From positions 62,001 through 126,000 of the forward strand of contig JAEULK010000092.1 in NCBI GenBank assembly GCA_016793775.1: DNA of 64,000 bases, written 5' to 3'. Each line of letters begins with the position of its first letter. Position 1 is the stretch's first letter. Of the stretch, positions 11,452 to 27,728 are shown piece after piece. The notes beneath the pieces were generated by a model, which saw only the letters and a program-made list of their open reading frames with translations, searched no databases and had not been told where the DNA came from. This DNA is from Sphingopyxis sp. Lineage in GTDB: Bacteria > Pseudomonadota > Alphaproteobacteria > Sphingomonadales > Sphingomonadaceae. A program made the position numbers and the translations under genes.

Positions 11452-12342
11452 CTAAGCCGCGAGGCGATTGCGCGCGACGGCGAGCGTCCAGCGTGCGAGC
11501 GCGGGCAGGTTGGCGGCGACATGCGCCGGGTCGGCGCGCAGCGCGCGGCGGACGAGGTCGAAGCGCCAACGCGTCCGGCTTTTGAGCGCGAGGCCGAGCA
11601 GGATTTCGCTGCGGCTGCGCGGCGCCGGCTGGTCGGGCATCGCGCGTTCGACGATCACCGCCGTCAAAGCCTGTATCTGGTCGGCGCGCTGGCTGGTCAG
11701 GCTGCCGCCATGCTTGCGATAACGGTAGAGATCCTCGTGCAGTTCGACGAAGACGAAGCGCTGCGCCGCGCGCAGCCAGAAATCATAATCCTCGACCCCG
11801 AACAGCCCGACGTCATAGCCGCCGAGCGCCTCGGTCACGGCGCGGCGATAGAGGAAGGCGGCGCCGATATTATTGCCGTGCAGCAGCCGTTCGACCGGTC
11901 CGACGCGCGAGCGACCGAGATCCCGGCCTTCATCGTCGATCAGGGAGAAATCGGCAAAAGCGACCCCCGCCTCCGGGTTGGCGTCGAGCGTGGCGACGAG
12001 CCGGTCGAGCATCTGCGGGCGGAGCAGATTGTCGTCGGAGGTCCAGCTGTGGAGCTCGCCCCGCGCCTGCGCAAACCCATGGTTGAGCGCGGCGGGGAGG
12101 CCGACATTGGTGTCGAGGCGGAAATGACGGACGCGCGGGTCGCGCGCCGCCGCCGCGGCCATGATCGCGGGGCTGTCGTCGCGCGAGGCGTCGTCGACGA
12201 GGATCAGCTCAAAATCGGCGAAACTCTGATCGAGGACCGAAGCGATGGCCTCTTCGAGCCAGCGTGCGCCATTGTGCACGGGCATCACCATCGACACGCG
12301 CGGGCGCGCCGCGCTCGAATCGAGAGCATCGGTCCCTGTCAT
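11452..12342 (-). CDS. Family 2 glycosyltransferase
   Basis: A 296-aa GT-A fold enzyme. The N-terminus shows the GT2 nucleotide-binding pattern VSMVMPVHNGARWLEEAI followed by FELILVDDASRDDS, and the acidic metal-binding motif appears as SWTSDDNLL (residues about 95-105). After about residue 200 the sequence is helical (FVELHEDLYRYRKHGGS is typical of the acceptor region). It most likely transfers a sugar from a nucleotide-sugar donor to a surface glycan. No other glycan genes are adjacent except the WcaF-like acyltransferase at 14710 and UDP-glucose dehydrogenase at 40590, so substrate cannot be assigned. Confidence 0.9.
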   Translation of the reverse strand: MTGTDALDSSAARPRVSMVMPVHNGARWLEEAIASVLDQSFADFELILVDDASRDDSPAIMAAAAARDPRVRHFRLDTNVGLPAALNHGFAQARGELHSWTSDDNLLRPQMLDRLVATLDANPEAGVAFADFSLIDDEGRDLGRSRVGPVERLLHGNNIGAAFLYRRAVTEALGGYDVGLFGVEDYDFWLRAAQRFVFVELHEDLYRYRKHGGSLTSQRADQIQALTAVIVERAMPDQPAPRSRSEILLGLALKSRTRWRFDLVRRALRADPAHVAANLPALARWTLAVARNRLAA

Positions 12343-12469
12343 TGCCCCCCGCCATAGCCCGCGCGCACGAAGCTTCCAAAGGCGTTTACCAATATTGCGG
12401 CGCCCGTCCGGCTTTGCGCAGCTAAGTTTCGCATTGCATTTGTGGGCGCATGCACGACATTGGCACAGG

Positions 12470-14563
12470 ATGCTGCGCCAATATGAACTTGTCGAGCGCG
12501 TGCGCGCTTATGATCCCGATGTCGACGAGGCGTTGCTGAACCGCGCCTATGTCTTCACCGTGCAGAAGCACGGGAGCCAGAAGCGCGCGTCGGGCGACCC
12601 CTATTTCAGCCATCCGGTCGAGGTCGCGGGCATTTTGACCGACCTGCACCTCGACAGCGAGACGATCGTCACCGCGCTGCTCCACGACACGCTCGAGGAC
12701 ACGCTGACCACGCCCGAGGAGATCGAAAGGCTGTTCGGTGCCGATGTCGGGCGGCTGGTCGACGGCGTGACCAAGCTCAGCAAGATCGAGGCGCAGACCG
12801 AGAACGAGCGCGCCGCGGAAAACCTCCGCAAATTCCTGCTCGCGATGTCCGACGATATCCGCGTGCTGCTGGTCAAGCTCGCCGACCGGCTGCACAATAT
12901 GCGCACGCTGCATTTTATCCAGAACCCCGACAAGCGCCGCCGCATCGCCAAGGAGACGATGGATATCTATGCCCCGCTCGCCGAGCGGATCGGCATGTAT
13001 GAATATATGCGCGAAATGCAGATGCTGGCGTTCCGCGAGCTGGAGCCCGAGGCCTATGCGACGATCACCGGGCGGCTCGCCAAGCTGACCGCCGGCGGCA
13101 AGGACAAGGTCGCGGCGGTCACCCGCGACTTCAAGGACTTGCTCGCGAAGAACGGCATCGAGGCCGATGTGTCGGGGCGCGAGAAGCATCCCTATTCGAT
13201 CTGGCGCAAGATGCAGGAGCGTCACGTCAGCTTCGAGCAGGTCACCGACATCATCGCCTTCCGCATCATCACGCCCACCGATGCCGACTGCTATGCCGCG
13301 CTGGGGCTGATCCACCGCAAGTGGAAAATGGTGCCGGGGCGCTTCAAGGACTATATCTCGACGCCGAAGCGCAACGGCTACAAGTCGCTGCACACGACGA
13401 TCATGCACCAGCAGAATATGCGCATCGAAATCCAGATCCGCAGCATCGGCATGCACCAGCAATCCGAATTCGGCTTTGCCGCGCATTGGGCGTACAAGCA
13501 GGGCGGCACCGTGCCCGATGGCCAGGCGGGGTGGATCCGCGACCTGCTCGAAATCCTCGAGCAGACACACGATCCCGACGAGTTCCTCGAAAATACGCGC
13601 ATCGCGATGTATCAGGACCGCATCTTCGCTTTCACCCCCAAGGGAAGCCTGCACCAGTTGCCCAAGGGCGCGACCCCGGTCGATTTCGCCTATGCGGTGC
13701 ACACCAAGCTTGGCGATCGCACCGTCGGCGCCAAGGTCAACGGCCGGCTCGTCCCGCTGCGCACCCAGCTCGCCAATGGCGACACCGTCGAGATATTGTC
13801 GTCGGACAAACAGACGCCGCAGCCCGCCTGGCTGGGTTTCGCGGTCACCGGCAAGGCGCGCGCGGCGATCCGCCGCCATGTGCGCTCGAAGGAAAAGGTC
13901 GAACTCGCCGCGCTGGGGCGCAAGATGTACGACGAGATCGTCGCGCGCGTGCCCGGCAAGGTCGGCGACAAGGCGCGCGCGACCGCGCTGACCCGGCTCA
14001 AGCTGGAGGACGATACCGCGCTGTACGTCGCGATCGGCAAGCGGCGGCTGTCGGACAATGCGGTGTTGGAGGCGCTGGTCCCCGGTATCACCGCCGAGAT
14101 GAAATCGAAGCCCGGCAAGCTGGCCCAAGGCGCGGCGGTGTCGATCGAGGGCCTGACCCCCGGCGTCGCCTATCAGCTCGCCGACTGCTGCCACCCGGTG
14201 CCCGGCGACCGCATCGTCGGGCTGGCGCGGCCGGGCGAGGGGATCGAGGTGCATGTCATCGACTGCCCCAGCCTCGCCGACGGGGTCGATGCCGACTGGA
14301 TCGACCTGCGCTGGCAGGAGGACAGCGAGGGCGGCAATGCGCGCCTCTGTATCGTCATCCTGAACGAACCCGGGACGCTCGCCGAAATGTCGGGCATCCT
14401 CGCGGTCAATTCGGCGAACATCACCAATTTGCGGCTGTCGAACCGCGAGGGCGGCTTCCACACCTATGACGTCGTCGTCGAGGTGCGCGATGTCCATCAT
14501 TTGATGCGCATATTGTCGGCGCTGCGCGCGTCCGACACGGTGGTGCAGGCCGAGCGGCTTTAG
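12470..14563 (+). CDS. rsh: Bifunctional (p)ppGpp synthetase/hydrolase
   Basis: A 697-aa RelA/SpoT homologue, the stringent-response enzyme. The hydrolase HD domain is intact (S47-H48-P49 and H72-D73 in LLHDTLEDT). The synthetase domain contains HPYSIWRKMQ and RFKD at residues 291-294, the RxKD form typical of bifunctional Rel enzymes rather than the ExDD of monofunctional RelA. A TGS domain (FAFTPKGSLHQLPKGATPVD) and a C-terminal ACT domain (CIVILNEPGTLAEMSGILA) follow. Start at 12470 (MLRQYELVERV) matches the family; an in-frame upstream extension overlaps the divergent glycosyltransferase and is unlikely. Probably the only long Rsh of this genome, as in most alphaproteobacteria. Confidence 0.95.
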   Translation: MLRQYELVERVRAYDPDVDEALLNRAYVFTVQKHGSQKRASGDPYFSHPVEVAGILTDLHLDSETIVTALLHDTLEDTLTTPEEIERLFGADVGRLVDGVTKLSKIEAQTENERAAENLRKFLLAMSDDIRVLLVKLADRLHNMRTLHFIQNPDKRRRIAKETMDIYAPLAERIGMYEYMREMQMLAFRELEPEAYATITGRLAKLTAGGKDKVAAVTRDFKDLLAKNGIEADVSGREKHPYSIWRKMQERHVSFEQVTDIIAFRIITPTDADCYAALGLIHRKWKMVPGRFKDYISTPKRNGYKSLHTTIMHQQNMRIEIQIRSIGMHQQSEFGFAAHWAYKQGGTVPDGQAGWIRDLLEILEQTHDPDEFLENTRIAMYQDRIFAFTPKGSLHQLPKGATPVDFAYAVHTKLGDRTVGAKVNGRLVPLRTQLANGDTVEILSSDKQTPQPAWLGFAVTGKARAAIRRHVRSKEKVELAALGRKMYDEIVARVPGKVGDKARATALTRLKLEDDTALYVAIGKRRLSDNAVLEALVPGITAEMKSKPGKLAQGAAVSIEGLTPGVAYQLADCCHPVPGDRIVGLARPGEGIEVHVIDCPSLADGVDADWIDLRWQEDSEGGNARLCIVILNEPGTLAEMSGILAVNSANITNLRLSNREGGFHTYDVVVEVRDVHHLMRILSALRASDTVVQAERL

Positions 14564-15352: not shown

Positions 15353-18300
15353 CTAGCCGCCGAGCCTGTCGGGGCCGCGCCACGCCGCCTTCTGATCGCG
15401 GTCCTCAGGGTCGGAATCGCGCACCTTATAGACCGTGCCGCGGCTGTTCAGAAACAGCTTCTCCATCTCGGGCCGGGTGAAGGGGCGCGAGCCGAGGCGG
15501 CCGAACACCGCCATCTGGCCGCCGGTCTCGTCGACCGCGCGGTCGCGGTCGAGGCCCTTCGACAGCGCGAGCGCCGGCGACGGGGTCCTGGCCCAGGCGA
15601 TCAGTTCGGGCGCCGGTTTGGGCGAGAAGCCGTAGAGGCCCGGATTGTCGGGGCTGGTCAACTGGATCACCTTGATGCCCGCGCGCCCGTCGGCGACATA
15701 GGCGAAGAGCGAGGCGTTGGTCGAGGCGACGATCACATCCTCGGCATCGACGAGCTTGCCGCCGAAGGTCTGGCCCGGCCAGACGAGCGGCGTCGCGGGC
15801 TTGGTGACGTCCACGATGACGAGGCCGTCGGCCTTGGCCGCGACATACATATAGGTGCGCGCGACATAGATTTTGCGGGCATTGGCGAGGCGCACGGTAC
15901 CCTCGGGCACCGGCACCGGCTGCGCCAGATTGGTGACGTCGAACAATTTGACACCCTCGGCATCGGTGACCCAGAGGTAGCGGAACTGCACCGCGCTGGC
16001 GCGCGCGTCGGTCAGCGGCAGCTGCGCCGTGACCTTGGGTTCGAGCGGATTGGTGAGGTCGAGCACCACCAGCCCCGCGTCGGTGGTGACATAGGCGATG
16101 CTGCCCGCGAGCGTGACGTGCCGCGCCCCGGCGAGGACATTGCCCTCGTTCCAGGTCAGCGCGCGGGTCAGCTTGTTGTTGCGGAATTCGCCGTCGGCCA
16201 TGGTGTCGATATCGACCAGGATCAGCCCTTCGACGCTGTCGGTGATAACCGCATAGCGATAGATGGGGTGCATCGCCTGTTCGTGATTTTCGGGGAAATC
16301 CTTGACGATATGGTCGTTGCGGCTGACGCTGATCGGCTGGGTCGTCGCGATCGCCATGCAGGTCGCATTCTTCGTTTTCACATGGGTGTCATGGCCCATG
16401 GACGAGAAGGGCGCGCGGATGATGCGTTCGGAGAAGCCCTTGTTGCCGATCGAGGCGATGTCATAGACGCGGAAGCCGCCCTTGCCTTCTGCCACGAACA
16501 TATATTCGCCGCGCTGTTGCAGGCAGTTCACCCGCCCGCTGGTATCCTGGACGATATTGGCGAATTCCTCGAGCGCATATTTCTCGCCCGACACCTTCTT
16601 GTCGAAGGCCTTGCCGCGCACCCAGTTCTTGAGCTCGCGGTCATTCTGTTCGACGTGCAGCTTCCAATAATCGGGATAGGCATATTTCTGAAGATAGCTG
16701 CCGATCACCGCCTGCGGCTCGTCCCATTCGGTGACGCGCGTCGCCTGGAACCCGCCCTCGAGCCCCGACCAGACGTTGAGGCCGACGAAATTGACGAAAT
16801 TGGTGCCGAGCAGGTTGAGCTGCGCCATGATCGCATTGTTGTCGTCATTTTCCGAGATGTGGCAGTCCGAGCATTGCTTGGTCTCGGCGCGGCGCACGGT
16901 GTGCGGGAAATGCGGCGCGAAGGCCTGGCTCGAATAGCCCGCCGACGAGATCGGCGGCTGCTGCACATAGATGCGTTCGCGGTTGATGTTGGTCGACGAC
17001 AGGACCAGCGCCGAGGTCGACCGGACCGGGGTGATGATGCCGCGGACCTCGCCGTCCGGACCGGGTTCGCCGGGCTTGGTCAGCTGGTGGCGACCGAGCT
17101 GGAACATCTCGTCGCGCGCGACCTGCGGATTGTAGGTCGCGAAGTTGCGCGTCTCCTCACCCTCGAAATGATGCATGCTGGTTTTCCAGTTCGCCTCGAT
17201 CGGCAAATGGCACCCGCCGCAGCTGGTGGTCCAGCTGAGGTGGCAGGTGAAGCAGGTCATCTTGTCTTCGCCGTGCGCGCGGTCTTGCTTCGCGATATCG
17301 GGCCCCCAGGCATAGGTGCCATCGTCGCCACCGCTGCGCGCCATCAGCTTGGCGCGCGCCGCCTTGGCGTTGAAATGCGGCCCCGGGGTCACCGCCTGCT
17401 TGACCAGGCTGACCTGCCATTCGAGCTTGGGATCGACGATCGAACGCTGGATCAGCCCGGTGACGTCGCCATTGTCGTTATACTGGAATTCAAAGCGCCG
17501 GCGCCCGTCGGGGTTGCGCAGCAGCGCCAGGTTGGTGCCCTGCGGCCGCGCCGCGACGTTCGAGGTGAGCAGATTGGGCAGCGCGTCGGCGGTGCCATGG
17601 CAATCCTTGCACCCGATCTCGACCGCGTTCGCGACTTCGCCCTGGATATAGCCATTGCCATGGCTGTCCTGCGCGAAGTGGCAGTCGGCGCATTGCATGC
17701 CCTTTTCGGCATGGATGTCCATCATATGGACCGCCTTGCCAGGGTTGAGCCCCGCCGGCACGAACTTGCCCTCGCGCCCGTCGGGGGTCGCCGTGGTCAG
17801 GCACAGTTCGCGGTCCTTGGGATCGCTATAGTCCGAACAGGATTTGCGCCAGCGATTGGCCCACAGATCGGGCTTGTCGGGCGTGATCATATGATCGGTG
17901 TCGGTGCCATAGGTCGCCATATTGCCGTCGGCGGTCAGCAGATTGCCGTTGCGATCGCGCTTGAAGATGCCGCGGAAGTTCCAGCCATGGCCGTGATAGT
18001 CGGCGAATTGGGTGTTCTGGTTGGTGTCATTGACGTCATAGACGTCGCGCAGGAATTCGACGTCGGCCCACAGCCCGCGCGTCGATGCCGCCTCGGGATT
18101 GCGTTCGAGAACCTTGTGGACCTCGGCGGCGGTCGGATAATGCTGCTGCTTATATTTCTTCTGATATTCCTCTTCGCTCATCCCTTCGGGGCGCGGCGTG
18201 GTGTTGTGCGGGCCCGGCCACATCTGCGGCGCGTCCGATTCATAATCCCACATCGTGTAGCCGAGGTAGGAGTTCAGGAAGATATTGGGCTGGTGCATGT

Positions 18301-19726
18301 GGCAGGTCATGCATTGCGAGGTCGGGATCGAGCGGGTGAAGGTGTGCTTGATCGGGTGCCCCGATTCCAGCCGCTCCTTCTGCGCGAAAACCTGCGGCCC
18401 CGCCTTGGCGTCGGCGGGATCGATCAGCCCACCATGCTTTTCCTCGTCGGGGGCGCGCTTGGCGGGGTCGCCACGCTCGCTGCTGCCACCGCCGCCCTGC
18501 CCGCCGCCATGATCGTCGCTCTCGGGCTTCCATTTGCGGTCGCGGATCGTCGGGTCGATCGTCGCGGTTTCGCCGTCGCGGCCATATTTGGAATAGGTCA
18601 GGCTGTGGCGCGGTTCGCGGTCGTTGGCATAGATGACATGGCAGCCCGAACAGCCGGAATGGCGATAATCGCCCGGCTGGTCGTTGGTGCCCATGAACCA
18701 CATCAGCGGATCGTTGAGGCGCGTCTTGTGGATGTTGAGTACGGGGATCGAGACGCGCAGGCCAGTGCCGGGGCCGCGGTTCGACTGTTTGAGATCGGGG
18801 CGGCCCGGTTCCTCGAGCCGCTGGATGCTGCCCGTCGGGTTGGGCAGACCGATTTCGGGGAATTGCGTGGCGATGTTGCGTCCGCCGCGCTCGAAGACGC
18901 GGAACACGTCGCCCGGCGGGATCACGCTCCAGCGCGGCAAAGGATACATTTTCGCGAGCGCGCCCCGCGCGCGCTCCTTGTCGGTCAATATCTTGTCGAA
19001 CGGCACCTTGGGGTCGCACGCCTTCCTATAATCGTCGGCGCTCATCGACGTGGTCGGCGACAGGATGCAGGCCGGGTCGCCCTTGCGGGTATAAGCCTCT
19101 CCGAAGACGTAATTTTTATAGGGGACGATGCCATTGTTGTAGGCGGCCCCGCCCCACAGCATCGCGCCGGTCGACATCAGGGACCGTTCGGTCGCCTCGA
19201 TCACCTCGAGGTGGCAGGCGCCGCACGCCTCGCGCGCGACGCGATAGTCGCTGGGGTTGATGAAACGGATGAATTCGGGCGATTCCTTGTTGAGCAGGGT
19301 GTAGCTGCGCTTGGGGTTCGCCGAGCTGTGCCCCCAGCTGTTGGGCAGCGTCGGCTGCGGATGCGCGACCTTCATCGCCGCGAGGTTGTACGGATTGTCG
19401 TAGCCCAGCTTGGCGTCGCCGAAGGCGGCGGGCGATTCGGCGTCGCCGCCGTGGCAGTCGACGCAGCCCAGCTGCACCGCGGGGGTCGCGTGCATCGAGG
19501 GGGCGTCGGTCTGGGTGTGGCAGCTGTAGCAGCCCTTCGACTTGGCGAGCACGGCGGCCTCGCGCTCGGCGAAGGTCGCGCCGGGCTGTTCGCGCGGCGC
19601 GGGCGGGCTGAAGCGATATTCGACCTTGACCGGCTTTTCGCCGCCGGCGGCATAGGCGATCGACACGGCAAAGCCGGCACCCATGACGAGAAAGGCCAGA
19701 AGGGCGAGGAGTTTGCGCATAGGCAT
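15353..19726 (-). CDS. Exported decaheme c-type cytochrome with C-terminal LVIVD beta-propeller
   Basis: A very large (1457-aa) exported protein. Residues 1-28 are a signal peptide (MRKLLALLAFLVMGAG). Ten CXXCH heme-attachment motifs are present with first cysteines at about residues 66, 88, 168, 359, 472, 679, 706, 825, 836 and 952. From about residue 1090 the sequence changes to LVIVD-type repeats (GFRVYDIASIG, GLILVDIDTM, GLVVLDLTNPLEPK, GVKLFDVTNLAQP, GLVIVDVTKPATP, GIKVIQLTSPDNPG), which fold as a beta-propeller. Hence a long heme wire joined to a propeller. The ATG overlaps the stop of the upstream barrel gene (TGATG), so the two are translationally coupled. By analogy to porin-cytochrome systems it may carry electrons across or outside the outer membrane; substrate and direction unknown. 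Confidence 0.88.
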   Translation of the reverse strand: MPMRKLLALLAFLVMGAGFAVSIAYAAGGEKPVKVEYRFSPPAPREQPGATFAEREAAVLAKSKGCYSCHTQTDAPSMHATPAVQLGCVDCHGGDAESPAAFGDAKLGYDNPYNLAAMKVAHPQPTLPNSWGHSSANPKRSYTLLNKESPEFIRFINPSDYRVAREACGACHLEVIEATERSLMSTGAMLWGGAAYNNGIVPYKNYVFGEAYTRKGDPACILSPTTSMSADDYRKACDPKVPFDKILTDKERARGALAKMYPLPRWSVIPPGDVFRVFERGGRNIATQFPEIGLPNPTGSIQRLEEPGRPDLKQSNRGPGTGLRVSIPVLNIHKTRLNDPLMWFMGTNDQPGDYRHSGCSGCHVIYANDREPRHSLTYSKYGRDGETATIDPTIRDRKWKPESDDHGGGQGGGGSSERGDPAKRAPDEEKHGGLIDPADAKAGPQVFAQKERLESGHPIKHTFTRSIPTSQCMTCHMHQPNIFLNSYLGYTMWDYESDAPQMWPGPHNTTPRPEGMSEEEYQKKYKQQHYPTAAEVHKVLERNPEAASTRGLWADVEFLRDVYDVNDTNQNTQFADYHGHGWNFRGIFKRDRNGNLLTADGNMATYGTDTDHMITPDKPDLWANRWRKSCSDYSDPKDRELCLTTATPDGREGKFVPAGLNPGKAVHMMDIHAEKGMQCADCHFAQDSHGNGYIQGEVANAVEIGCKDCHGTADALPNLLTSNVAARPQGTNLALLRNPDGRRRFEFQYNDNGDVTGLIQRSIVDPKLEWQVSLVKQAVTPGPHFNAKAARAKLMARSGGDDGTYAWGPDIAKQDRAHGEDKMTCFTCHLSWTTSCGGCHLPIEANWKTSMHHFEGEETRNFATYNPQVARDEMFQLGRHQLTKPGEPGPDGEVRGIITPVRSTSALVLSSTNINRERIYVQQPPISSAGYSSQAFAPHFPHTVRRAETKQCSDCHISENDDNNAIMAQLNLLGTNFVNFVGLNVWSGLEGGFQATRVTEWDEPQAVIGSYLQKYAYPDYWKLHVEQNDRELKNWVRGKAFDKKVSGEKYALEEFANIVQDTSGRVNCLQQRGEYMFVAEGKGGFRVYDIASIGNKGFSERIIRAPFSSMGHDTHVKTKNATCMAIATTQPISVSRNDHIVKDFPENHEQAMHPIYRYAVITDSVEGLILVDIDTMADGEFRNNKLTRALTWNEGNVLAGARHVTLAGSIAYVTTDAGLVVLDLTNPLEPKVTAQLPLTDARASAVQFRYLWVTDAEGVKLFDVTNLAQPVPVPEGTVRLANARKIYVARTYMYVAAKADGLVIVDVTKPATPLVWPGQTFGGKLVDAEDVIVASTNASLFAYVADGRAGIKVIQLTSPDNPGLYGFSPKPAPELIAWARTPSPALALSKGLDRDRAVDETGGQMAVFGRLGSRPFTRPEMEKLFLNSRGTVYKVRDSDPEDRDQKAAWRGPDRLGG

Positions 19727-21693
19727 CAGAAACTCAAAATCACATTGGCGAGGATCGAGACATAGATGTCGTCGCGCTGCTTGTTGTCGAACAGATCCTT
19801 GAACCCCTTGCCCGGCACCAGCACCGCGGCGCTGAGGCGGCCGACGATATTCTGCGTTGCCTTGGGCCGCCAGATGCCCGCGACCGACAGGTCCCAGCCG
19901 ATGTCCTTGGGAATCGTGCCTTCCATGCGCAGCGCCTGGAGGCTCGAGGTGTCGGCGAACCACAAATGGTTGGCGTTGACGCTGACCCGCGTCTGCGGTG
20001 AGAGGTCGAAATCGGCACCGGCACCGACAAAGAGGGTGCCGGGATTGTTGAAATTCGACTGGCCCTCTTCCTTCGACGAGCGCAGCGAATTGAGGATGCC
20101 GTTGCGGCCCGAGATCGCGATGACGCGCCCGCCGCCCGCGAAGGGGATGGTCTGACGGATCCAGTAGCTGGTGTCGGCGCCGCCGAAGATCGGATTTTCG
20201 AAGATCGCGTCGAAGCCGCCCTCGGTATTGTTGTACGGGTCGCGGTCGCCGGTGGCGTAGAGGCCCGACAGGCGGAATCGCATCCAGTCATGGTCGTAGC
20301 TGAGCTCGACCGCGCCGAAACCCGCGCGAATCTTGGCGGGCTTGCTGGTGAAGAAGCTGTTCCGATCCTCGCCGAGCGCGGCATAGAAGCTGGCGGTCAG
20401 GTTGACACGCCCGATCCGCCCGTCGGCGCTGTAGCCGAGATAAACGACGTCATATTCGCGCCCGCGCAAATCGCCGAGCAGCGCCGGGCGCACCGGGAAG
20501 CCATTATGGTCGATCTGAACGTCGTTCTTTTCGCGGTTCATATTGTAGGTGACGCTGACCTGGCTGGTCAGCCCGACGAACGGGAAATCCTGGCGATAGA
20601 GATTGCCGGTGAAGATGAAGTCGTCGCGCGGGGTCTGGGTGATGTCGTTGAGACCCGAATTGGTGTCCTTTTCGAGCCGCCAGAAGGCCGCGAGATTATA
20701 TTGGAAGCGGTTGTTGTCGCGGTTTCCGAACAGGCGGATGCCGAGCTGCGAATCCTGGAACAGGAAACCGCGGAAATCGCTCTGGAACGGCTGGATGCCG
20801 ACGCGGATCGAGTGGAAGTCGAAGCGGTCGCTGTCGTTGCCGAGATGCTTGTCGACGAACAATTCCTGCACGCCGATGAAATGATCGAAACGGTGGCTCT
20901 TTTTCGACGGGCGCACGTCGAGCACGCGCCGTTCGGGCACGTCGACATAGTTCGCCTGATAGGCCAGCGTGACGCGATATTCGATGTCGGGCGGCTTGAA
21001 CGCGGTCGAGCCCTTGATCAGCGCCGCGCCGACGATGAAGGTCTGCGCCGCGACGAAGCTGCGGTTCTTGCCGAAGACATCGAGGCTGCCGGGGCGCGAG
21101 GTCGTCTGGACGCCGACGGGGATCGGGAAGGTGCGCGGCTCGAATACCGTATCGGAGACGGCATTGACGACGAAGAACCAGTCGTCACCGGTGAGGCCGA
21201 GGAACTTCGGCGTCTTGCAGCGCACCTCGCCGGCGCGTTCGCGCAGCTCCTGTTCCTCGGCGGTCGGGATGCAGATCGGGCGGTCGCCCTTGTAGGTATT
21301 CTGGTGATAGGGGTCGAACCAGCGTTCCTTGACGACGCCAAGGCTTTCGATCAGCCGCCAGCGGTCGGGGACGGGCAGCTGGTTCTCCATGCCCGGAAAC
21401 GCCTCGGGCGGCGGCGGGCGCAGCGCACCGATATTGTCCTGCGTCAGCTGGTCGGGCAGGTCGGGGCGATAGCCGGGGCGGCGGCGGCCCTCGATGATCT
21501 GGGTGACCATATCCTCGCTCATCGTCTCCTGCCAGTTGATCGGCGGCGGCGGCGGGGTCAGATCGTCGAGCGAGGGTTCGGTCGCGGGCGCTTCCTCGCT
21601 CGCGGCGGGCGCGGGATCGGCGGCCTCGCCCGGGGCAGTCTGTGCCGCCAGGCTGGCGATGATCGGCCAAAGGCTGCTCCCCGCGAAGCTCAT
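19726..21693 (-). CDS. Outer-membrane beta-barrel protein of the cytochrome operon
   Basis: A 655-aa exported protein without a recognised family. The N-terminus is a short hydrophobic signal-like stretch (SSLWPIIASLAAQTAPG), followed by a Pro/Ala/Glu-rich segment (about 20-55) and a soluble region with two cysteines (RPICIPTAEE and EVRCKTPKF). From about residue 175 alternating hydrophobic/polar strands dominate (YRVTLAYQANYVDV, RVNLTASFYAALG, MRFRLSGLYATGD), and the last residue is Phe in SILANVILSF, the BAM insertion signal. This is what a trans-outer-membrane barrel looks like. Lying between a heme-degrading-like lipoprotein and a decaheme cytochrome, it is the best candidate for the porin sheath of an electron conduit. 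It lacks the CXXC of MtrB. Confidence 0.75.
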   Translation of the reverse strand: MSFAGSSLWPIIASLAAQTAPGEAADPAPAASEEAPATEPSLDDLTPPPPPINWQETMSEDMVTQIIEGRRRPGYRPDLPDQLTQDNIGALRPPPPEAFPGMENQLPVPDRWRLIESLGVVKERWFDPYHQNTYKGDRPICIPTAEEQELRERAGEVRCKTPKFLGLTGDDWFFVVNAVSDTVFEPRTFPIPVGVQTTSRPGSLDVFGKNRSFVAAQTFIVGAALIKGSTAFKPPDIEYRVTLAYQANYVDVPERRVLDVRPSKKSHRFDHFIGVQELFVDKHLGNDSDRFDFHSIRVGIQPFQSDFRGFLFQDSQLGIRLFGNRDNNRFQYNLAAFWRLEKDTNSGLNDITQTPRDDFIFTGNLYRQDFPFVGLTSQVSVTYNMNREKNDVQIDHNGFPVRPALLGDLRGREYDVVYLGYSADGRIGRVNLTASFYAALGEDRNSFFTSKPAKIRAGFGAVELSYDHDWMRFRLSGLYATGDRDPYNNTEGGFDAIFENPIFGGADTSYWIRQTIPFAGGGRVIAISGRNGILNSLRSSKEEGQSNFNNPGTLFVGAGADFDLSPQTRVSVNANHLWFADTSSLQALRMEGTIPKDIGWDLSVAGIWRPKATQNIVGRLSAAVLVPGKGFKDLFDNKQRDDIYVSILANVILSF

Positions 21694-21696
21694 CGT

Positions 21697-23712
21697 CTAG
21701 AGCCCGTCGCAGACATTTTGCTGCGCCGTGTCGAGGAAGGGCGCGAAGGGGCAGGAGACATAGCGCAGCCGCGCGGTCGCGCCGCCCGCCAGATCGACCA
21801 CGACGCGGTCGGCGCGGATCGCGCTCGGCGCATTGCCGATGCCGCCGACGCGCGCGCCGCCATTATGCGTGCCGAGGAAGCTGACCATATCGTCCTGGTC
21901 GATGCCGTCGCCCGACACGCCGATCGCCCCGACCAGCGTGCTGCCGCGATAGATGGGGACCGATCCCGGGAAGATCTGGATGCCGTTGGCGATGCGCTTG
22001 CGCCCGAGCGTGGTATCGGGGACCTGCGTACATTGCTGCGCGGTGTCGGGGCTGGCGCCATTGCTGGCGACGAAATTGAGATGCTGGACGATGTTGAGCG
22101 CGACGAGGTCGACCTGCAGCCCCACCGCGAAGGGGCTGAACTGCGCCGCCTGTTCGACCGAGAAGGGACCCGCCGGGCGCGCGACCTCGCCATCGGGGAA
22201 ATAAGGCCGCGCCAGATTGCCGACCGAGCGGTCGCCGAAGGCGGTGCCGCCGGTCAGCGCCGCCGGGTCATTGAGGAAGGTGCGCGTGCGCTGGACATAG
22301 GCGGGCACATTGGCGACGCCGGGCACGACCGGCGTCGCGAGCAGTTCGGGCGCGGCGCGGCTGCCCGACAGGAAGGCCACGGTCCGCGCCTTTTGCAGGC
22401 TGACGTCGGTGCCGAAGATCGGCGCGTCGGGCGAGCGGACGATGCCCAGCACCTCGCCATTGGTATCGACGAGGCTGATCGTCGCCTGCATCCGGCTGTC
22501 GAGCGGGCGGCGGATTTGCGCGCGCGCGCGGGTGAGGACGGTGAACGCCTCCTCGAGCACCGCGCGCACTTCGGCGGCAGTCAGCGGCTGCGCGACCGCG
22601 GCGCCGTCGGTGCCGGCGCGGATCGGATAACGCGGCGCGCCGCTGCCGTCGGTGAGGACAAAGGCGTCGCGGTTCGAAAATTCGCCCGCGGTGCTGGCGC
22701 GGATGCCCGACGCCTCGGTGCCATAGACGGTGCCGGCGATCAGCGTGCCGTCGGTATAGCCGGTGATCGCGATCAGCGCGCCCTGCGTGCCGTTGATCGC
22801 GCCGAAATTGGTCTGGAGCGGCGCGAGATTGGCCGGCGTCGCGTCGCTGAAGCGCAGCGAGGTCCCGTCGACGGTGATCCGTTCGGCGCGGATCGCGTCC
22901 GCGGCGGCAAAGCTTTGCGTGCCGGCGAAGGCGATCGCTTCCTCGTCGTCATTCTCGATGTCGAGGATATTCTGGTCGAAGCTGTAATCGCCGTCGCCCA
23001 TCACCCCGATGCCGCCGACGACGACGCCGTTCTTGTAGAGCGGGAAACCGCCAGCATCGGCGGCGAGGCCGAGCGGCGAGCGTTTGGGCCCGATCAGCGC
23101 GCCCGCGCCGCCGCCTGGGACGAAGCGCCGCGACAGGTCCGAGCAGGGAAGCTGGCTGAACTGCACACCGAAGAGCGGCCCGCTTTCGAGCCCGACGGTG
23201 GTCGGCGCCGGGGGGAAATGTTCCTGGACGATCTGGCTCGCGGTGCGGCTCGAAAAGGCGTTGCCACCGCTCGACAGATAGGCGCCGGTGATCGCCTTGG
23301 CGATCGCCGCGGCGGCGGCGGGGATCGTCGCGCCCTGGAGCGCGATCTGGGCGCCCGCGGGGGCCGGGCCGCCGATGCGGTTGCGGCTGACCACTGCGGT
23401 GTCGGGCGCGCCGGTCATGCGGAAGACGGCGAGCACATTGCCGACGCGGTCGGTCACCGCGATGATCGAGGGTCGCCCGCGCGCGCGCGCTTCGCCGACC
23501 GCTTGCGCGATGATCTGCTGCACGTCGGCGACGCTCAGCGATTCGGCGGCGGGCGGCGCGAACAGCCCGCCGGTGGGCGGCGGCGTGGGGGTAGGGGTCG
23601 GGGTCGGCGTGGGCGTACCGCCGCCCCCACCGCCGCCACCGCAGGAGGTGAGCAGCAGCGCGGCCATGGCGGCGAAAGCGGTCGATCGGAAGAGGCGGGT
23701 CGGCTTTGTCAT
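21697..23712 (-). CDS. Lipoprotein with two GlcG/HbpS-like (heme-binding) domains
   Basis: A 671-aa predicted lipoprotein. The signal peptide ends in a lipobox LTSC with Cys24, followed by eight glycines and a Thr-Pro repeat linker (to about residue 48). Two GlcG/HbpS (Haem_degrading, PF03928-type) domains follow: one with RPSIIAVTDRVGNVLAVFRM and GGFPLYKNGVVVGGIGVMG, the other with MQATISLVDTNGEVLGIVR and VPIYRGSTLVGAIGVSGDG. The family includes heme-binding HbpS and GlcG. Each copy carries a long insertion between its two halves. The gene is separated from the barrel gene by only 3 bp and follows the c554-like gene by 8 bp. Suggested role: heme or redox-cofactor handling at the outer membrane, inferred from context. 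Confidence 0.8.
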   Translation of the reverse strand: MTKPTRLFRSTAFAAMAALLLTSCGGGGGGGGTPTPTPTPTPTPPPTGGLFAPPAAESLSVADVQQIIAQAVGEARARGRPSIIAVTDRVGNVLAVFRMTGAPDTAVVSRNRIGGPAPAGAQIALQGATIPAAAAAIAKAITGAYLSSGGNAFSSRTASQIVQEHFPPAPTTVGLESGPLFGVQFSQLPCSDLSRRFVPGGGAGALIGPKRSPLGLAADAGGFPLYKNGVVVGGIGVMGDGDYSFDQNILDIENDDEEAIAFAGTQSFAAADAIRAERITVDGTSLRFSDATPANLAPLQTNFGAINGTQGALIAITGYTDGTLIAGTVYGTEASGIRASTAGEFSNRDAFVLTDGSGAPRYPIRAGTDGAAVAQPLTAAEVRAVLEEAFTVLTRARAQIRRPLDSRMQATISLVDTNGEVLGIVRSPDAPIFGTDVSLQKARTVAFLSGSRAAPELLATPVVPGVANVPAYVQRTRTFLNDPAALTGGTAFGDRSVGNLARPYFPDGEVARPAGPFSVEQAAQFSPFAVGLQVDLVALNIVQHLNFVASNGASPDTAQQCTQVPDTTLGRKRIANGIQIFPGSVPIYRGSTLVGAIGVSGDGIDQDDMVSFLGTHNGGARVGGIGNAPSAIRADRVVVDLAGGATARLRYVSCPFAPFLDTAQQNVCDGL

Positions 23713-23720
23713 ATTCTGTG

Positions 23721-25226
23721 TCAGCGCAGCGCCCGGATGGCGCGCACCGCGCTGCCCAGCGAGGCCTGGAAATCGGCGGGTTTATAGGCGTTGGGGTCCT
23801 TCACCGCGGCATAGGCGCGGTCGATGTCGCCGCGGATGCCGGCGGCGGCGCCGACGGTGATCCGCCCCGACGAGACCATCGAATTGAGCAGGGTATCGAC
23901 CCCCATCACCGCCTGCTGCGATCCCGAATAGTCGGTGAGGCGGTCATTGAGCGCCTTGGCCGAAATCGCATCGACGAGCGCGAAGGCGTCGGTGCCCGAG
24001 AAATTGCGCGAGGCGAAGGCGGCCTTGAGCTTGCCGACCGTCGCGCCGAGCTGGGCCGCGGCGGCTTTCGCGCTGTCGCGGTCGACGGTCATCGCGCGGT
24101 GGAAGGCGGCGGTGCGCGTCGACAATTCAGCGGCCAGATCGGCCGAGACCAGCCGCGCCGCGGCGGACAGCATGATCAGATTTTCGTCATTATAGGGGGG
24201 CATGCCTTCGGGCCAGTCGGCACCATTGCCCAGCGTGCGCCCGGGATTGTCCAGGCTGGTCTTCACCGGCTTCGCCTGGTCGAAGATGCGGCGGTGGCAG
24301 CTGTGGCAATCGAGGAAATAGAATTCGGGGAACATGCCCTCGGCCCCGCGCTTCGACTGGAAGAGCGTCAGGCTGCGTTCGAGCGCCGCCGCCTGGCCGA
24401 CCGCCCACATCTGGACATGGTCGGTCTGCGCGCCCTTGGCGCCGAACTTGCGCCAGCCATAATCCTCATCCTCCTGGTGATGCGCCTGGAGCGAGGAGAA
24501 GAGATCGAGCTCGAAGCTGATCCGCGGATGCCCCGCCGCCATGATGCGGTGGGTGACGAACTGGCCCTCGCCCGCCGAGCCGAAATGGCAATCGACGCAC
24601 ACCCCGGCGCGCACGACCGGATCCTCGAGCTTGCGGAGGCCCGCGGACAGGTTGGCGAGATGCTTTTCGCGGCTTTCGCGGTCGGGGTCGGCGTTGGTGC
24701 CGATGCCGGCATAATGGCTGGCGATCCAGCCGCCCGCGGGGCCGTGGCACGATTCGCAGCCGACTCCGTCCTCGAGCGGCACGGTGCCGCGCATCGCGCC
24801 GCCCGCCGCGTCGATCGCGCCCTTGCTGCTGTGGCAGCCGAGGCACATCGGCGCCGTCGCCGCGTCCTTGAGGCCAAGATTGCGCGCGATGAACTGGCTG
24901 CGATTGTTGCTCAGCACCGCCCAGGCCCGGCTGTGCGCGCCGCCGGGGGTCGAGGGTTCCTGCCATTTCATCAGCTCGTCCTGGCGGACGACGGTGCCGT
25001 CGCCTTCCATCCGGCCGTGACAGGTCGATCCGGCGCAGGAGGCGACACCGGTGTAGCGGCCGCCGGCCTCGCCCTGCGAGCGCGCGGGCGGGGCCGCGAG
25101 GACGGCCGCGACGGCAAGCGCCGCCAGCAACAGCACAAGGGCGGCAAATGCCGCGAGCGGACGCTGGACGGCGGCCAAGGCCGCCGAAGGCCGATCGCGG
25201 CGCTCCTTTCCAGCGTGCGTCGTCAT
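23721..25226 (-). CDS. Multiheme cytochrome of the c554-like type
   Basis: A 501-aa exported cytochrome and the promoter-proximal gene of the operon. Residues 22-50 form an uncleaved-anchor or signal segment. Heme sites: an unusual CX4CH (CAGSTCH, C64-H70), then CXXCH at C128-H132, C157-H161, C210-H214 and C307-H311. Intervening conserved stretches (VGCESCHGPAGGWIASHY, MAAGHPRISFEL) resemble cytochrome c554-family sequences. The C-terminal 180 residues lack heme motifs and are helical. It could be the periplasmic carrier that passes electrons to or from the decaheme-barrel complex encoded downstream. If the CX4CH site binds heme, it is a pentaheme protein. Confidence 0.82.
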   Translation of the reverse strand: MTTHAGKERRDRPSAALAAVQRPLAAFAALVLLLAALAVAAVLAAPPARSQGEAGGRYTGVASCAGSTCHGRMEGDGTVVRQDELMKWQEPSTPGGAHSRAWAVLSNNRSQFIARNLGLKDAATAPMCLGCHSSKGAIDAAGGAMRGTVPLEDGVGCESCHGPAGGWIASHYAGIGTNADPDRESREKHLANLSAGLRKLEDPVVRAGVCVDCHFGSAGEGQFVTHRIMAAGHPRISFELDLFSSLQAHHQEDEDYGWRKFGAKGAQTDHVQMWAVGQAAALERSLTLFQSKRGAEGMFPEFYFLDCHSCHRRIFDQAKPVKTSLDNPGRTLGNGADWPEGMPPYNDENLIMLSAAARLVSADLAAELSTRTAAFHRAMTVDRDSAKAAAAQLGATVGKLKAAFASRNFSGTDAFALVDAISAKALNDRLTDYSGSQQAVMGVDTLLNSMVSSGRITVGAAAGIRGDIDRAYAAVKDPNAYKPADFQASLGSAVRAIRALR

Positions 25227-25274: not shown

Positions 25275-26630
25275 TTACACCACGCCGAACGCCAGCATCG
25301 CGTCGGCCACCTTCTTGAAGCCCGCGATATTGGCGCCCTTCACATAGTCGATATAGCCGCCGCCCTGGTCGCCATAGGTCAGGCAGCTCTTGTGGATGCC
25401 GTCCATGATGTCCTTGAGCATCTGCTGCAGCTCGCTTTCCTTCCAGCTGCGGCGTTCGCTGTTCTGGCTCATTTCGAGGCCCGATACCGCGACGCCGCCG
25501 GCATTCGCCGCCTTGCCGGGAGCGAACATGATCTTCGCATCCTTGAAGACATGCACGCCTTCCAGGTTGGTCGGCATGTTGGCGCCTTCGCTGACCGCGA
25601 TGCAGCCATTGGCGACCAGCGCCTTGGCATCGGCGCCGAGCAGCTCGTTCTGCGTCGCACAGGGCAAGGCGACGTCGCATTTGACGCCCCACGGGGTCTT
25701 GCCCGCGGTGAAGCTCGCGCCCTTGAACTCGTCGCAATATTCCTCGATCCGGCCGCGGCGGTGTGTCTTGTGCGCCTTCACCCAGTCGATCTTTTCCTGG
25801 GTGATGCCGTCGGGATCGTGGATGAAGCCGCCCGAATCGGACAGCGTCAGCACCTTGCCGCCGAGCTGGACGATCTTTTCCGCCGCATGCGTCGCGACAT
25901 TGCCCGAGCCCGAGATCACCGCGGTCTTGCCGACCAGGTCCATGTCTTTCGCCGCCAGCATGTTCTGGAGGAAATAGACCGCGCCATAGCCGGTCGCCTC
26001 GGTGCGGATCAGCGAGCCGCCCCATTCGAGGCCCTTGCCGGTGAGCACGCCGGTGAATTCGTTGGTGATGCGCTTATACTGGCCGAACATGAAGCCGATT
26101 TCGCGGCCGCCCACGCCGATGTCGCCCGCCGGCACGTCGATGTCGGCGCCGATGTGGCGATAGAGTTCGGTCATGAAGCTCTGGCAGAAGCGCATGATCT
26201 CACGCACGCTCTTGCCCTTGGGGTTGAAGTTCGACCCGCCCTTGCCGCCGCCCATGGGCAGGCCGGTCAGCGCGTTCTTGAACGTCTGTTCGAAGGCCAG
26301 GAATTTGAGCACCGATTCGGTGACCGAGGGGTGGAAACGGATGCCGCCCTTATACGGGCCGATCGCATTGTTGTTCTGGACGCGCCAGCCGCGCTGGACG
26401 CGGACATTGCCATTGTCATCCTCCCAGCAAACGCGGAAGGACACGACCCGGTCGGGTTCGGCGATGCGCCGCAAAATCTGCTGCGCGTGATATTCTTCCT
26501 TGTCCTTGATGAAGTCGAAGATGTCTTCGGCGACTTCCTGTACCGCCTGGACGAACTCGGGCTGCCCCGGGTTGCGCTTCGACACACCCTCCATGAACGT
26601 CTTGAAATCGACGTGATCTGAAACTGCCAT
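25275..26630 (-). CDS. gdhA: NADP-type glutamate dehydrogenase
   Basis: A 451-aa hexameric-type GDH that aminates 2-oxoglutarate to glutamate. Clear motifs: substrate-site Lys region GPYKGGIRFHPSV, PMGGGKGGSNFNPKGKS, catalytic Asp region DVPAGDIGVGGREIGFM, and Rossmann TAVISGSGNVATHAAEK. Length and segments such as CATQNELLGADAKALVANG are those of the 450-aa GdhA group, usually NADP-dependent; coenzyme preference is inferred. A strong ribosome binding site (GGGGAGGGG) precedes the ATG. It is 48 bp upstream of nothing on its strand except the cytochrome operon, whose first gene lies beyond 25226, so the two units could be read together or separately. Confidence 0.95.
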   Translation of the reverse strand: MAVSDHVDFKTFMEGVSKRNPGQPEFVQAVQEVAEDIFDFIKDKEEYHAQQILRRIAEPDRVVSFRVCWEDDNGNVRVQRGWRVQNNNAIGPYKGGIRFHPSVTESVLKFLAFEQTFKNALTGLPMGGGKGGSNFNPKGKSVREIMRFCQSFMTELYRHIGADIDVPAGDIGVGGREIGFMFGQYKRITNEFTGVLTGKGLEWGGSLIRTEATGYGAVYFLQNMLAAKDMDLVGKTAVISGSGNVATHAAEKIVQLGGKVLTLSDSGGFIHDPDGITQEKIDWVKAHKTHRRGRIEEYCDEFKGASFTAGKTPWGVKCDVALPCATQNELLGADAKALVANGCIAVSEGANMPTNLEGVHVFKDAKIMFAPGKAANAGGVAVSGLEMSQNSERRSWKESELQQMLKDIMDGIHKSCLTYGDQGGGYIDYVKGANIAGFKKVADAMLAFGVV

Positions 26631-26789: not shown

Positions 26790-27728
26790 ATGAACGAGAG
26801 CAAGAAGATGGCCGGGGGCATGACACGGACGGGGGCGGGGTTGCTGATCGCCGCCTTCCTGTTGCTGGCGGGGGCGGTCGGTTATGCGATCTGGCGCGAT
26901 TCGGGGCAGCAGGGCGCCGTTTCGGCGACCCAACCACCCCCCGCACCCGGCGACCAGCTCGCCGCGCTGGAGGCGCGGACCCGCGCCGAGCCGAACAGCG
27001 CCGACGCCTGGACCGCGCTCGGCGCGGCGCGGTTCGACCTCGAAAATTATCCCGGCGCGGTCGCGGCGTATGAAAAGGCGACCGCCCTTTCGCCCGATTC
27101 GGCGGGGTTGTGGTCGGCGCTCGGCGAGGCGCGGGTGATGGCCAGCGAGCGCGATCCGATGCCGGCGGCGGCACTCGCGGCGTTCGACAAGGCGATCGCG
27201 CTCGACGCGAAGGACCCCCGTGCGCGCTATTTCCTCGCGGTGAAAAAGGATGTCGGTGGCGACCACAAGGGCGCGATCGCCGACTGGTTCGCGCTGCTCG
27301 AGGACACGCCGCAGGGCGCGCCATGGGAAGCGGACCTGCGCCGCACGATCGAACAGGTCGGCGCGATTCACAAGATCGAGGTGGCGGGCCGGCTGGCAAG
27401 CACGCGGCCGCGCCCGCTGACCGCCGACGAGATGCCGGTCGCCGCGCGCGCGATCCCGGGGCCCACCCGCGCCGACATGGAGGCCGCGTCGCAGCTGCCC
27501 AAGGGCCAGCAGGACGTGATGATCCAGGGCATGGTCGACGGGCTGGAAACCAAGCTGAAGGCCAATCCCAAAGACGTCGACCGCTGGATCATGCTGATGC
27601 GCAGCCGCATGACGCTGGGCGAGAGTGCGAAGGCGGCGCAGGCGCTGAAGGACGGCATCGCCGCCAATCCGGGCGCGGCGGCGCGGCTGAAGGCGCAGGC
27701 GCAATTGCTGGGGGTTCCGGGGGCCTGA
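26790..27728 (+). CDS. Membrane-anchored TPR protein, CcmI/CycH-like
   Basis: A 312-aa protein with an N-terminal transmembrane helix (GLLIAAFLLLAGAVGYAIW) and a periplasmic TPR domain: WTALGAARFDLENYPGAVA, AYEKATALSPDSAGLWSALG and RDPMPAAALAAFDKAIAL form consecutive TPRs, and a further TPR-like pair lies at the C-terminus. The layout resembles the periplasmic half of CcmI (CycH), which presents apocytochrome c to the heme-ligation machinery. The gene lies within 2 kb of the multiheme cytochrome operon but no other ccm genes are adjacent, so the cytochrome-maturation role is only suggested. Divergent from gdhA. Confidence 0.7.
   Translation: MNESKKMAGGMTRTGAGLLIAAFLLLAGAVGYAIWRDSGQQGAVSATQPPPAPGDQLAALEARTRAEPNSADAWTALGAARFDLENYPGAVAAYEKATALSPDSAGLWSALGEARVMASERDPMPAAALAAFDKAIALDAKDPRARYFLAVKKDVGGDHKGAIADWFALLEDTPQGAPWEADLRRTIEQVGAIHKIEVAGRLASTRPRPLTADEMPVAARAIPGPTRADMEAASQLPKGQQDVMIQGMVDGLETKLKANPKDVDRWIMLMRSRMTLGESAKAAQALKDGIAANPGAAARLKAQAQLLGVPGA

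Follow-up and report, generated by a model that had tools for sequence, protein, structure and literature searches.

Gene organization of the outer cluster

The window analysed in this study is a stretch of 64,000 nucleotides from a Sphingopyxis sp. genome (contig JAEULK010000092.1 of assembly GCA_016793775.1, positions 62,001 to 126,000). Its minus strand carries a cluster of four genes, encoding two multiheme cytochromes, a lipoprotein and a predicted outer-membrane barrel, for which the original prediction, made from the sequence alone, proposed a new type of porin-cytochrome conduit for extracellular electron transfer. In the order of transcription, the four genes are as follows.

23721..25226, minus strand: pentaheme c-type cytochrome, 501 amino acids, cytochrome c554-like, with four CXXCH and one CX4CH motif and a hydrophobic N-terminal segment (residues 24-42)
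21697..23712, minus strand: lipoprotein of 671 amino acids with a lipobox-like LLLTSC and, as judged from the Pfam stretches and the length, two HbpS/GlcG domains
19726..21693, minus strand: outer-membrane barrel, 655 amino acids, with 18 predicted strands (residues 172-654) of AlgE-like fold behind a conserved Pro-rich segment
15353..19726, minus strand: decaheme c-type cytochrome, 1457 amino acids, with a C-terminal LVIVD propeller and a Sec-type N-terminus as read off the sequence

The pentaheme and HbpS genes are separated by 8 bp and the HbpS and barrel genes by 3 bp, while the barrel and decaheme genes overlap by 1 bp. The coordinates, strands, lengths and spacings of the original prediction were all exact. 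The pentaheme cytochrome matches the Pfam family Cytochrome_C554 (E 2.3e-11), and its fifth heme motif, C64AGSTCH, is of the CX4CH type beside the four CXXCH. The lipoprotein matches HbpS-like (E 2e-23), and the decaheme protein, with ten CXXCH by motif count, matches LVIVD (E 4.4e-12) and cytochrome c3-type families, in agreement with the pentaheme-like cytochrome, the GlcG/HbpS-type lipoprotein and the propeller-bearing decaheme protein that had been recognized earlier. The barrel, described as ending in Phe, has F or Y as the last residue in 75 of 75 homologues.

Judging from their hydrophobic N-termini, both cytochromes are predicted to be multiheme periplasmic c-type cytochromes. The decaheme protein could be placed either at the surface, as a relay, or in the periplasm, as a reductase. 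Beyond the CXXCH motifs, 20 His residues are conserved in more than 90% of the decaheme sequences, a number sufficient for a putative bis-His ligation. Against the PDB, the decaheme profile gave no match up to E 1, and the single sequence gave marginal matches only (from E 0.22), mainly to heme stretches of nitrite reductase.

Conservation and distribution of the cluster

For the survey of gene neighbourhoods, the best 80 of 535 barrel relatives were taken as named loci, and motifs were counted on complete and distinct homologues after removal of duplicates. Distribution was examined in 199 genomes of the family to which the window belongs and in 398 genomes of the phylum, and neighbour genes were surveyed in 88 loci. 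Of the 80 named loci, 70 contain the complete set of four genes, in the order pentaheme-HbpS-barrel-decaheme; the remaining 10 lack one or more genes, and there the contig ends before the expected position. Thus the survey that had been suggested as a check on the original prediction found the four genes conserved together at all loci where the contig extends far enough, and the barrel has one or both cytochrome genes next to it in each of the 80 loci. Ten CXXCH are retained in 70 of 71 decaheme homologues and four CXXCH in 68 of 69 pentaheme homologues, with exactly one CX4CH in 67 of the 69. A genome of another class, only distantly related, also has the CX4CH motif. At a locus from another class (L123), the pentaheme gene sits after the decaheme gene, yet still inside the cluster.

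Among the named relatives listed, the closest barrels belong to Sphingopyxis strains and one unclassified Sphingomonadaceae bacterium (91-92% identity). Of the genomes sampled, 72 of the 199 from the family and 12 of the 398 from the phylum contain the barrel, and among these 12 are representatives of two other families of the class and two genomes from beyond the class. It was also found on 13 plasmid records, one of Sphingopyxis indica and 12 of Sphingobium (for example NZ_CP076395.1 and NZ_CP020539.1), two of the 13 being typed as conjugative. Given this location on large plasmids, some of them typed as conjugative, transfer of the cluster between strains is possible. The barrel is annotated as 'hypothetical protein' in all 13 plasmid records, while on the Sphingobium herbicidovorans plasmid the annotations of the other products include cytochrome c family, heme-binding, multiheme c-type cytochrome and cytochrome c3 family proteins.

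As a separate observation, Tsuneonella rigui carries an extra opposite-strand gene with a DUF4331 match between the HbpS and barrel genes (L094:8428-9165), and an insertion of similar size is found in L111.

Inner-membrane module on a second contig

The flanks of homologous loci led to a module of three genes on another contig (C102) of the source genome (G000), encoding a flavoprotein, a diheme b-type inner-membrane protein and a second decaheme cytochrome with an FHA-like domain (FHA-decaheme). The flavoprotein, about 800 amino acids in length, includes YpdA/thioredoxin-reductase-like FAD/NAD(P) domains (Pyr_redox), two cyclic-nucleotide-binding domains and a ferredoxin-type region, within which Fer4_11 (PF13247) is matched at E 3.9e-10. 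The 16 Cys residues of this region are invariant in 33 distinct homologues, a pattern as expected for four [4Fe-4S] clusters. The flavoprotein gene adjoins that of the inner-membrane protein on the upstream side. Among 57 distinct sequences of the latter protein (about 300 amino acids), 55 contain two WX3HX13H motifs and 49 contain SGXXG, and all three motifs are present in the copy of the source genome. A simple hydropathy scan of four sequences gave 3 to 5 segments. The FHA-decaheme protein has the FHA-like domain at its N-terminus and, in 48 of the 49 distinct sequences compared, ten CXXCH; Pfam FHA was above the cut-off in L123, while in the source genome only the related Yop-YscD_cpl model was matched, below the cut-off. 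One transmembrane segment was detected in three of four FHA-decaheme sequences scanned and none in that of L145. In Sphingobium herbicidovorans, the inner-membrane protein is annotated as hypothetical and the flavoprotein as a cyclic nucleotide-binding domain-containing protein.

The trio is present in 42 of the 66 named loci that extend at least 3.5 kb past the decaheme gene, and 19 of the 24 loci without the trio are from Sphingopyxis. Variant forms were also observed. At L147:8849-12205 and L148:3052-6423, the flavoprotein exceeds 1100 amino acids, perhaps by fusion with the b-type membrane protein, and lies near an FHA-type protein with nine CXXCH, without the outer barrel module. One genome (L145 and L146) has two copies of the flavoprotein, the barrel being absent.

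Co-occurrence of the outer and inner modules

In the family sample, FHA-decaheme was detected in 71 of 72 barrel-positive genomes and in none of 127 barrel-negative genomes, as counted per genome and uncorrected for phylogeny. The sole barrel genome lacking FHA-decaheme is an assembly of 67% completeness (G022). The two genes of the 71 pairs are located within 20 kb in 32 cases, farther apart on the same contig in 17 and on different contigs in 22, the last group possibly including neighbours separated by draft assembly. In the phylum sample, the flavoprotein was found in all 12 barrel genomes. At least five genera (g1, g15, g29, g78 and g79) are mixed, with some members carrying both modules and others (G181, G028, G103, G079 and G078) carrying neither. 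As a contrast, the gene for the photosynthetic reaction centre was over the cut-off in 33 of the 199 genomes, 17 of which also contain the barrel (Fisher p 0.05, uncorrected), giving a Jaccard index with the barrel of 0.19 versus 0.99 for FHA-decaheme. Phototrophy was rejected as an explanation, the association of the barrel with reaction-centre genes being weak at most.

Physical linkage was also observed. In L123, the genes of both modules form a single run of seven on one strand, with an 11-bp overlap between the open frames of FHA-decaheme and HbpS. In G348, a genome outside the class, the contig holds the trio next to the HbpS and barrel genes, all on one strand, before it ends. The barrel and FHA-decaheme are found together on the same 12 Sphingobium plasmids, and the Sphingopyxis indica plasmid carries the barrel without FHA-decaheme. 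The four genes in the window are thus probably the outer half, and the trio on C102 the inner half, of one trans-envelope electron-transfer system.

Neighbouring genes related to cyclic nucleotides

Between the decaheme gene and the trio lies a metallophosphoesterase gene, of which the best NCBIfam matches are the cyclic-nucleotide phosphodiesterases SpdA (138 bits against a cut-off of 400) and CpdA (75.5 against 225); a phosphodiesterase-like gene of this kind also borders the trio on C102. Its phosphodiesterase-like homologues were found in 46 of the 88 loci, including 42 of the 43 named loci in which the trio is at least partly present. A CHASE2-cyclase match was detected in the flank upstream of the pentaheme gene in 22 of the 68 named loci with enough flank (identity 50-57% in 17 and 32-37% in five). 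Of five cyclase matches analysed with Pfam, four of the 22 and that of L155, each contains the class III cyclase domain and four contain CHASE2. A cyclase match was detected neither in the window nor in the stretch of C102 examined. Taken together, the two cyclic-nucleotide-binding domains and the phosphodiesterase-like and cyclase neighbours suggest a local cyclic-nucleotide control of electron flow, with cAMP as the likelier nucleotide.

Regulation by CRP was also considered. The window contains 4 CRP-like sites against a mean of 9.0 in shuffled sequences, fewer rather than more, and CRP was rejected as the regulator. The C102 stretch contains 6 against a shuffle mean of 2.5. An exact CRP-type palindrome on C102 (L134:10888-10903) precedes the phosphodiesterase-like open frame by 118 bp and falls within the terminal (3') part of the FHA-decaheme gene.

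Predicted structure of the barrel

The model of the barrel contains 18 strands (pLDDT 64, below 50 for residues 1-137 and 511-546), and a fold search of the model gave AlgE-like and also OprD-like matches. By sequence, no Pfam family (up to E 1) and no NCBIfam model was matched. Against the PDB, the single sequence gave one match, to flightin (E 0.13, confined to the Pro-rich N-terminus), and the profile gave two, to N-acetyltransferases (E 2.4 and 2.6), none of them credible. When the barrel profile was run over 200 phylum genomes, the four positives were all known members and no intermediate family was detected. Likewise, no Pfam, NCBIfam or credible PDB sequence match supports a relationship to MtrB or PioB, in line with the earlier remark that no such similarity is obvious. 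MtrB is not among the 50 fold matches listed for the model, an absence which by itself excludes nothing. The solved structure of MtrB has 26 strands.

Conservation is 0.85 for the predicted extracellular loops and 0.82 for the strands, and reaches 0.91 for a loop of 72 residues, 481 to 552, where the sides of the loops were assigned by strand counting in a model of moderate confidence, with no control outer-membrane protein for comparison. Loops as conserved as strands suggest that a conserved partner docks there and speak against a variable mouth of the pore. Because the model is 18-stranded and AlgE-like, a heme wire inside the barrel lumen is doubtful. Structure prediction had been proposed as a check on the conduit; the barrel is indeed predicted to be an outer-membrane barrel, but the predicted 18-stranded AlgE-like fold lends no support to a heme wire in its lumen.

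Comparison with known systems

The comparisons below refer to the available portions of the cited papers. The closest published relatives are PCC3 and PCC4, proposed as putative porin-cytochrome clusters by He et al. 2017 (PMC5566968), which share the motif of the inner-membrane protein but differ in heme inventory. PCC4 combines a porin and three multiheme cytochromes with an inner-membrane protein carrying SGXXG and two WX3HX13H, and in its subgroup II, as here, a PF13247 Fe-S gene is located upstream of the gene for that protein. Its cytochromes contain 4, 5 and 10 hemes, in contrast to 5, 10 and 10 in the present system, and its description in that portion of the paper mentions no HbpS lipoprotein, propeller, FHA or cyclic-nucleotide domain (PMC5566968). 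PCC3, known from Erythrobacter sp. among others, likewise has a porin, multiheme cytochromes and a five-helix inner-membrane protein with the same motifs (PMC5566968, PMC10734462). In contrast, the median numbers of heme sites in its repeat-rich cytochromes are 34 (extracellular) and 21 (periplasmic), as opposed to 10 and 5 here, and most of its porins have many predicted strands, up to 42 (PMC5566968, PMC10734462).

The ExtABCD system of Geobacter resembles the outer cluster in that a barrel of 18 predicted transmembrane segments lies beside pentaheme and larger multiheme cytochromes, when the two barrels are set side by side by description; its surface components are lipoprotein cytochromes, and neither HbpS nor an NAD(P)H-linked module is named in that account (PMC6148476). 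Each of the Geobacter conduit clusters is needed under at least one condition (PMC6148476). By the criteria of that study, a porin-cytochrome conduit includes a multiheme c-type cytochrome in the periplasm and outer-membrane lipoproteins that carry a redox cofactor; here, such cytochromes and an 18-stranded barrel are predicted, and the lipoprotein is HbpS-like and lacks CXXCH. MtrCAB, PioAB and MtoAB share with the present system the general idea of a barrel with multiheme cytochromes, but MtrB forms a wide sheath round a decaheme cytochrome, with 28 transmembrane regions (PMC5566968) against 18 predicted strands here. AlgE, the alginate exporter, has the 18-strand fold in common with the barrel model, yet the identity is 14%, no Pfam match exists and the barrel lies in a context of cytochrome genes. 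No description of the gene set as joined here was found in the open-access literature, a weak negative since that search left out preprints and the greater part of the subscription journals.

Proposed electron chain and alternative explanations

The two modules, when combined, probably form a trans-envelope chain from NAD(P)H to the outside, gated by cyclic nucleotide. NAD(P)H would reduce the cytoplasmic FAD protein, the four [4Fe-4S] clusters would hand the electrons to the diheme b-type membrane protein, and FHA-decaheme, anchored in the inner membrane, would carry them into the periplasm. The pentaheme cytochrome would then relay the electrons to an assembly of barrel, HbpS-lipoprotein and decaheme-propeller at the outer membrane, which would reduce an extracellular or surface acceptor; for this acceptor, Fe(III), Mn(IV), chalcogen oxyanions and humics are guesses. 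Binding of cyclic nucleotide at the two domains of the flavoprotein would gate the flow. The motifs back the inner half of this chain, while the order of electron transfer and the step at the outer membrane are proposals. The gene content, motifs, co-conservation and co-occurrence are observed, and from these we infer cofactor loading, electron order, outward direction, crossing of the outer membrane, gating and acceptor. A more specific model is possible, although we would not call it probable: a quinone-independent and second-messenger-gated exporter, in which a wire opened by cyclic nucleotide runs through diheme b, an FHA-controlled decaheme, the pentaheme, the AlgE-like barrel and an extracellular decaheme-propeller, discharging the NAD(P)H electrons of aerobic alphaproteobacteria. 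Of the porin-cytochrome conduit in the original prediction, the co-conserved cluster is upheld and has gained a probable inner partner module, while the heme wire in the barrel is doubtful and the crossing of the outer membrane is a proposal.

Several observations weigh against this chain. The HbpS-like lipoprotein contains no CXXCH and is thus not a c-type cytochrome, the decaheme sequence includes no lipobox, and the AlphaFold model of the decaheme protein (residues 28-1085) is of low confidence (pLDDT 41.5). The barrel is missing in three of the 15 flavoprotein genomes of the phylum sample, indicating that the inner module also exists alone, and presence and absence of the modules are phylogenetically non-independent. 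As to the gating, the phosphodiesterase-like protein stays below both NCBIfam cut-offs, its gene was not found in L122, L123 and L125, and the window has a lower number of CRP-like sites than shuffled sequence. The doubt about a heme wire in the barrel lumen points in the same direction. One alternative that would accommodate an AlgE/OprD-like fold, which is a substrate-channel class, is that no conduit exists. In this case the barrel would serve as a channel for substrates, and the inner module would supply electrons to the decaheme-propeller, acting in the periplasm or at the surface as a reductase of an oxyanion or an organic oxidant. A match of the decaheme protein to ExtM (NF040943, a selenite/tellurite-operon cytochrome) is in line with such a reductase, at 67.7 bits and far from the curated cut-off of 800. 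We consider this arrangement rather unlikely, as the predicted loops of the barrel, in a model of moderate confidence, are conserved like its strands.

The same chain might also run in reverse and draw electrons from a donor outside the cell such as Fe(II) or Mn(II), the direction proposed for MtoAB, PCC3 and PCC4. The motif of the inner-membrane protein is common to PCC3 and PCC4, which came from searches of the genomes of Fe(II) oxidisers (PMC5566968), and a cluster labelled 'forkhead-associated protein', which carries 10 heme motifs and is likened to FHA-decaheme by description only, is reported in 27 of 87 Gallionellaceae iron oxidisers and filed under 'Other' (available portion of PMC10734462). 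The inner end of the present system, however, is an NAD(P)H-type flavoprotein with a pattern as for four [4Fe-4S] clusters and not a bare quinone-linked protein. Electron transfer from Fe(II) or Mn(II) to NAD(P)+ requires energy, and uptake would demand an input that none of the identified parts appears to provide. Uptake is accordingly held to be unlikely. Finally, the co-occurrence might reflect shared ancestry only, two unrelated modules having been inherited jointly, since in our samples, counted by genome and not tree-aware, both modules are concentrated in the family of the window. This is highly improbable in view of the genera with both-module and neither-module members, the adjacency of the modules in two barrel-positive genomes outside the class, and the reaction-centre gene, which is likewise sporadic and shows no such co-occurrence.

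Other genes near the cluster

Two further genes in the window adjoin the region upstream of the cluster.

25275..26630, minus strand: glutamate dehydrogenase gdhA, 48 bp upstream of the cluster on the same strand, a candidate member of the system
26790..27728, plus strand: CcmH/CycH-type TPR protein (cytochrome c biogenesis), of which a homologue adjoins the flavoprotein gene in other genomes

The gdhA gene recurs in 32 of the 88 loci, at least 19 of them from Sphingopyxis, in various arrangements, and is located inside the cluster in L125; a link to the system via NADPH supply is possible. The TPR gene lies beside the outer module in Sphingopyxis and beside the flavoprotein gene in Sphingobium and several further genomes, as a bridge between the modules would, and may play such a linking role.

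A gene for a RelA/SpoT-type (p)ppGpp synthetase is located near the cluster (window 12245-14563), and is found beside it in Sphingopyxis indica too. On plasmid pMSHV of Sphingobium herbicidovorans (L155:2347-10500), a ShlB/FhaC-type two-partner secretion gene and a gene for a protein of 2092 amino acids immediately precede the pentaheme gene, and 15 further loci contain a match to part of this large protein.

Implications for the family

The cluster is real, widespread in the family, strongly conserved and larger than the four genes recognized originally, and its inner half is unusual. If the proposed chain is true, about one third of the family genomes sampled (72 of 199), from organisms treated as aerobic heterotrophs, would own a surface electron outlet left unnamed by standard annotation. 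Cyclic-nucleotide and possibly phosphopeptide (FHA) signalling would be coupled directly to electron flow, and the putative inner-membrane protein of the PCC3/PCC4 type would gain an NAD(P)H-linked partner. Such an outlet could bear on biofilm redox balance, on metal and chalcogen reduction and on pollutant degradation in sphingomonads.

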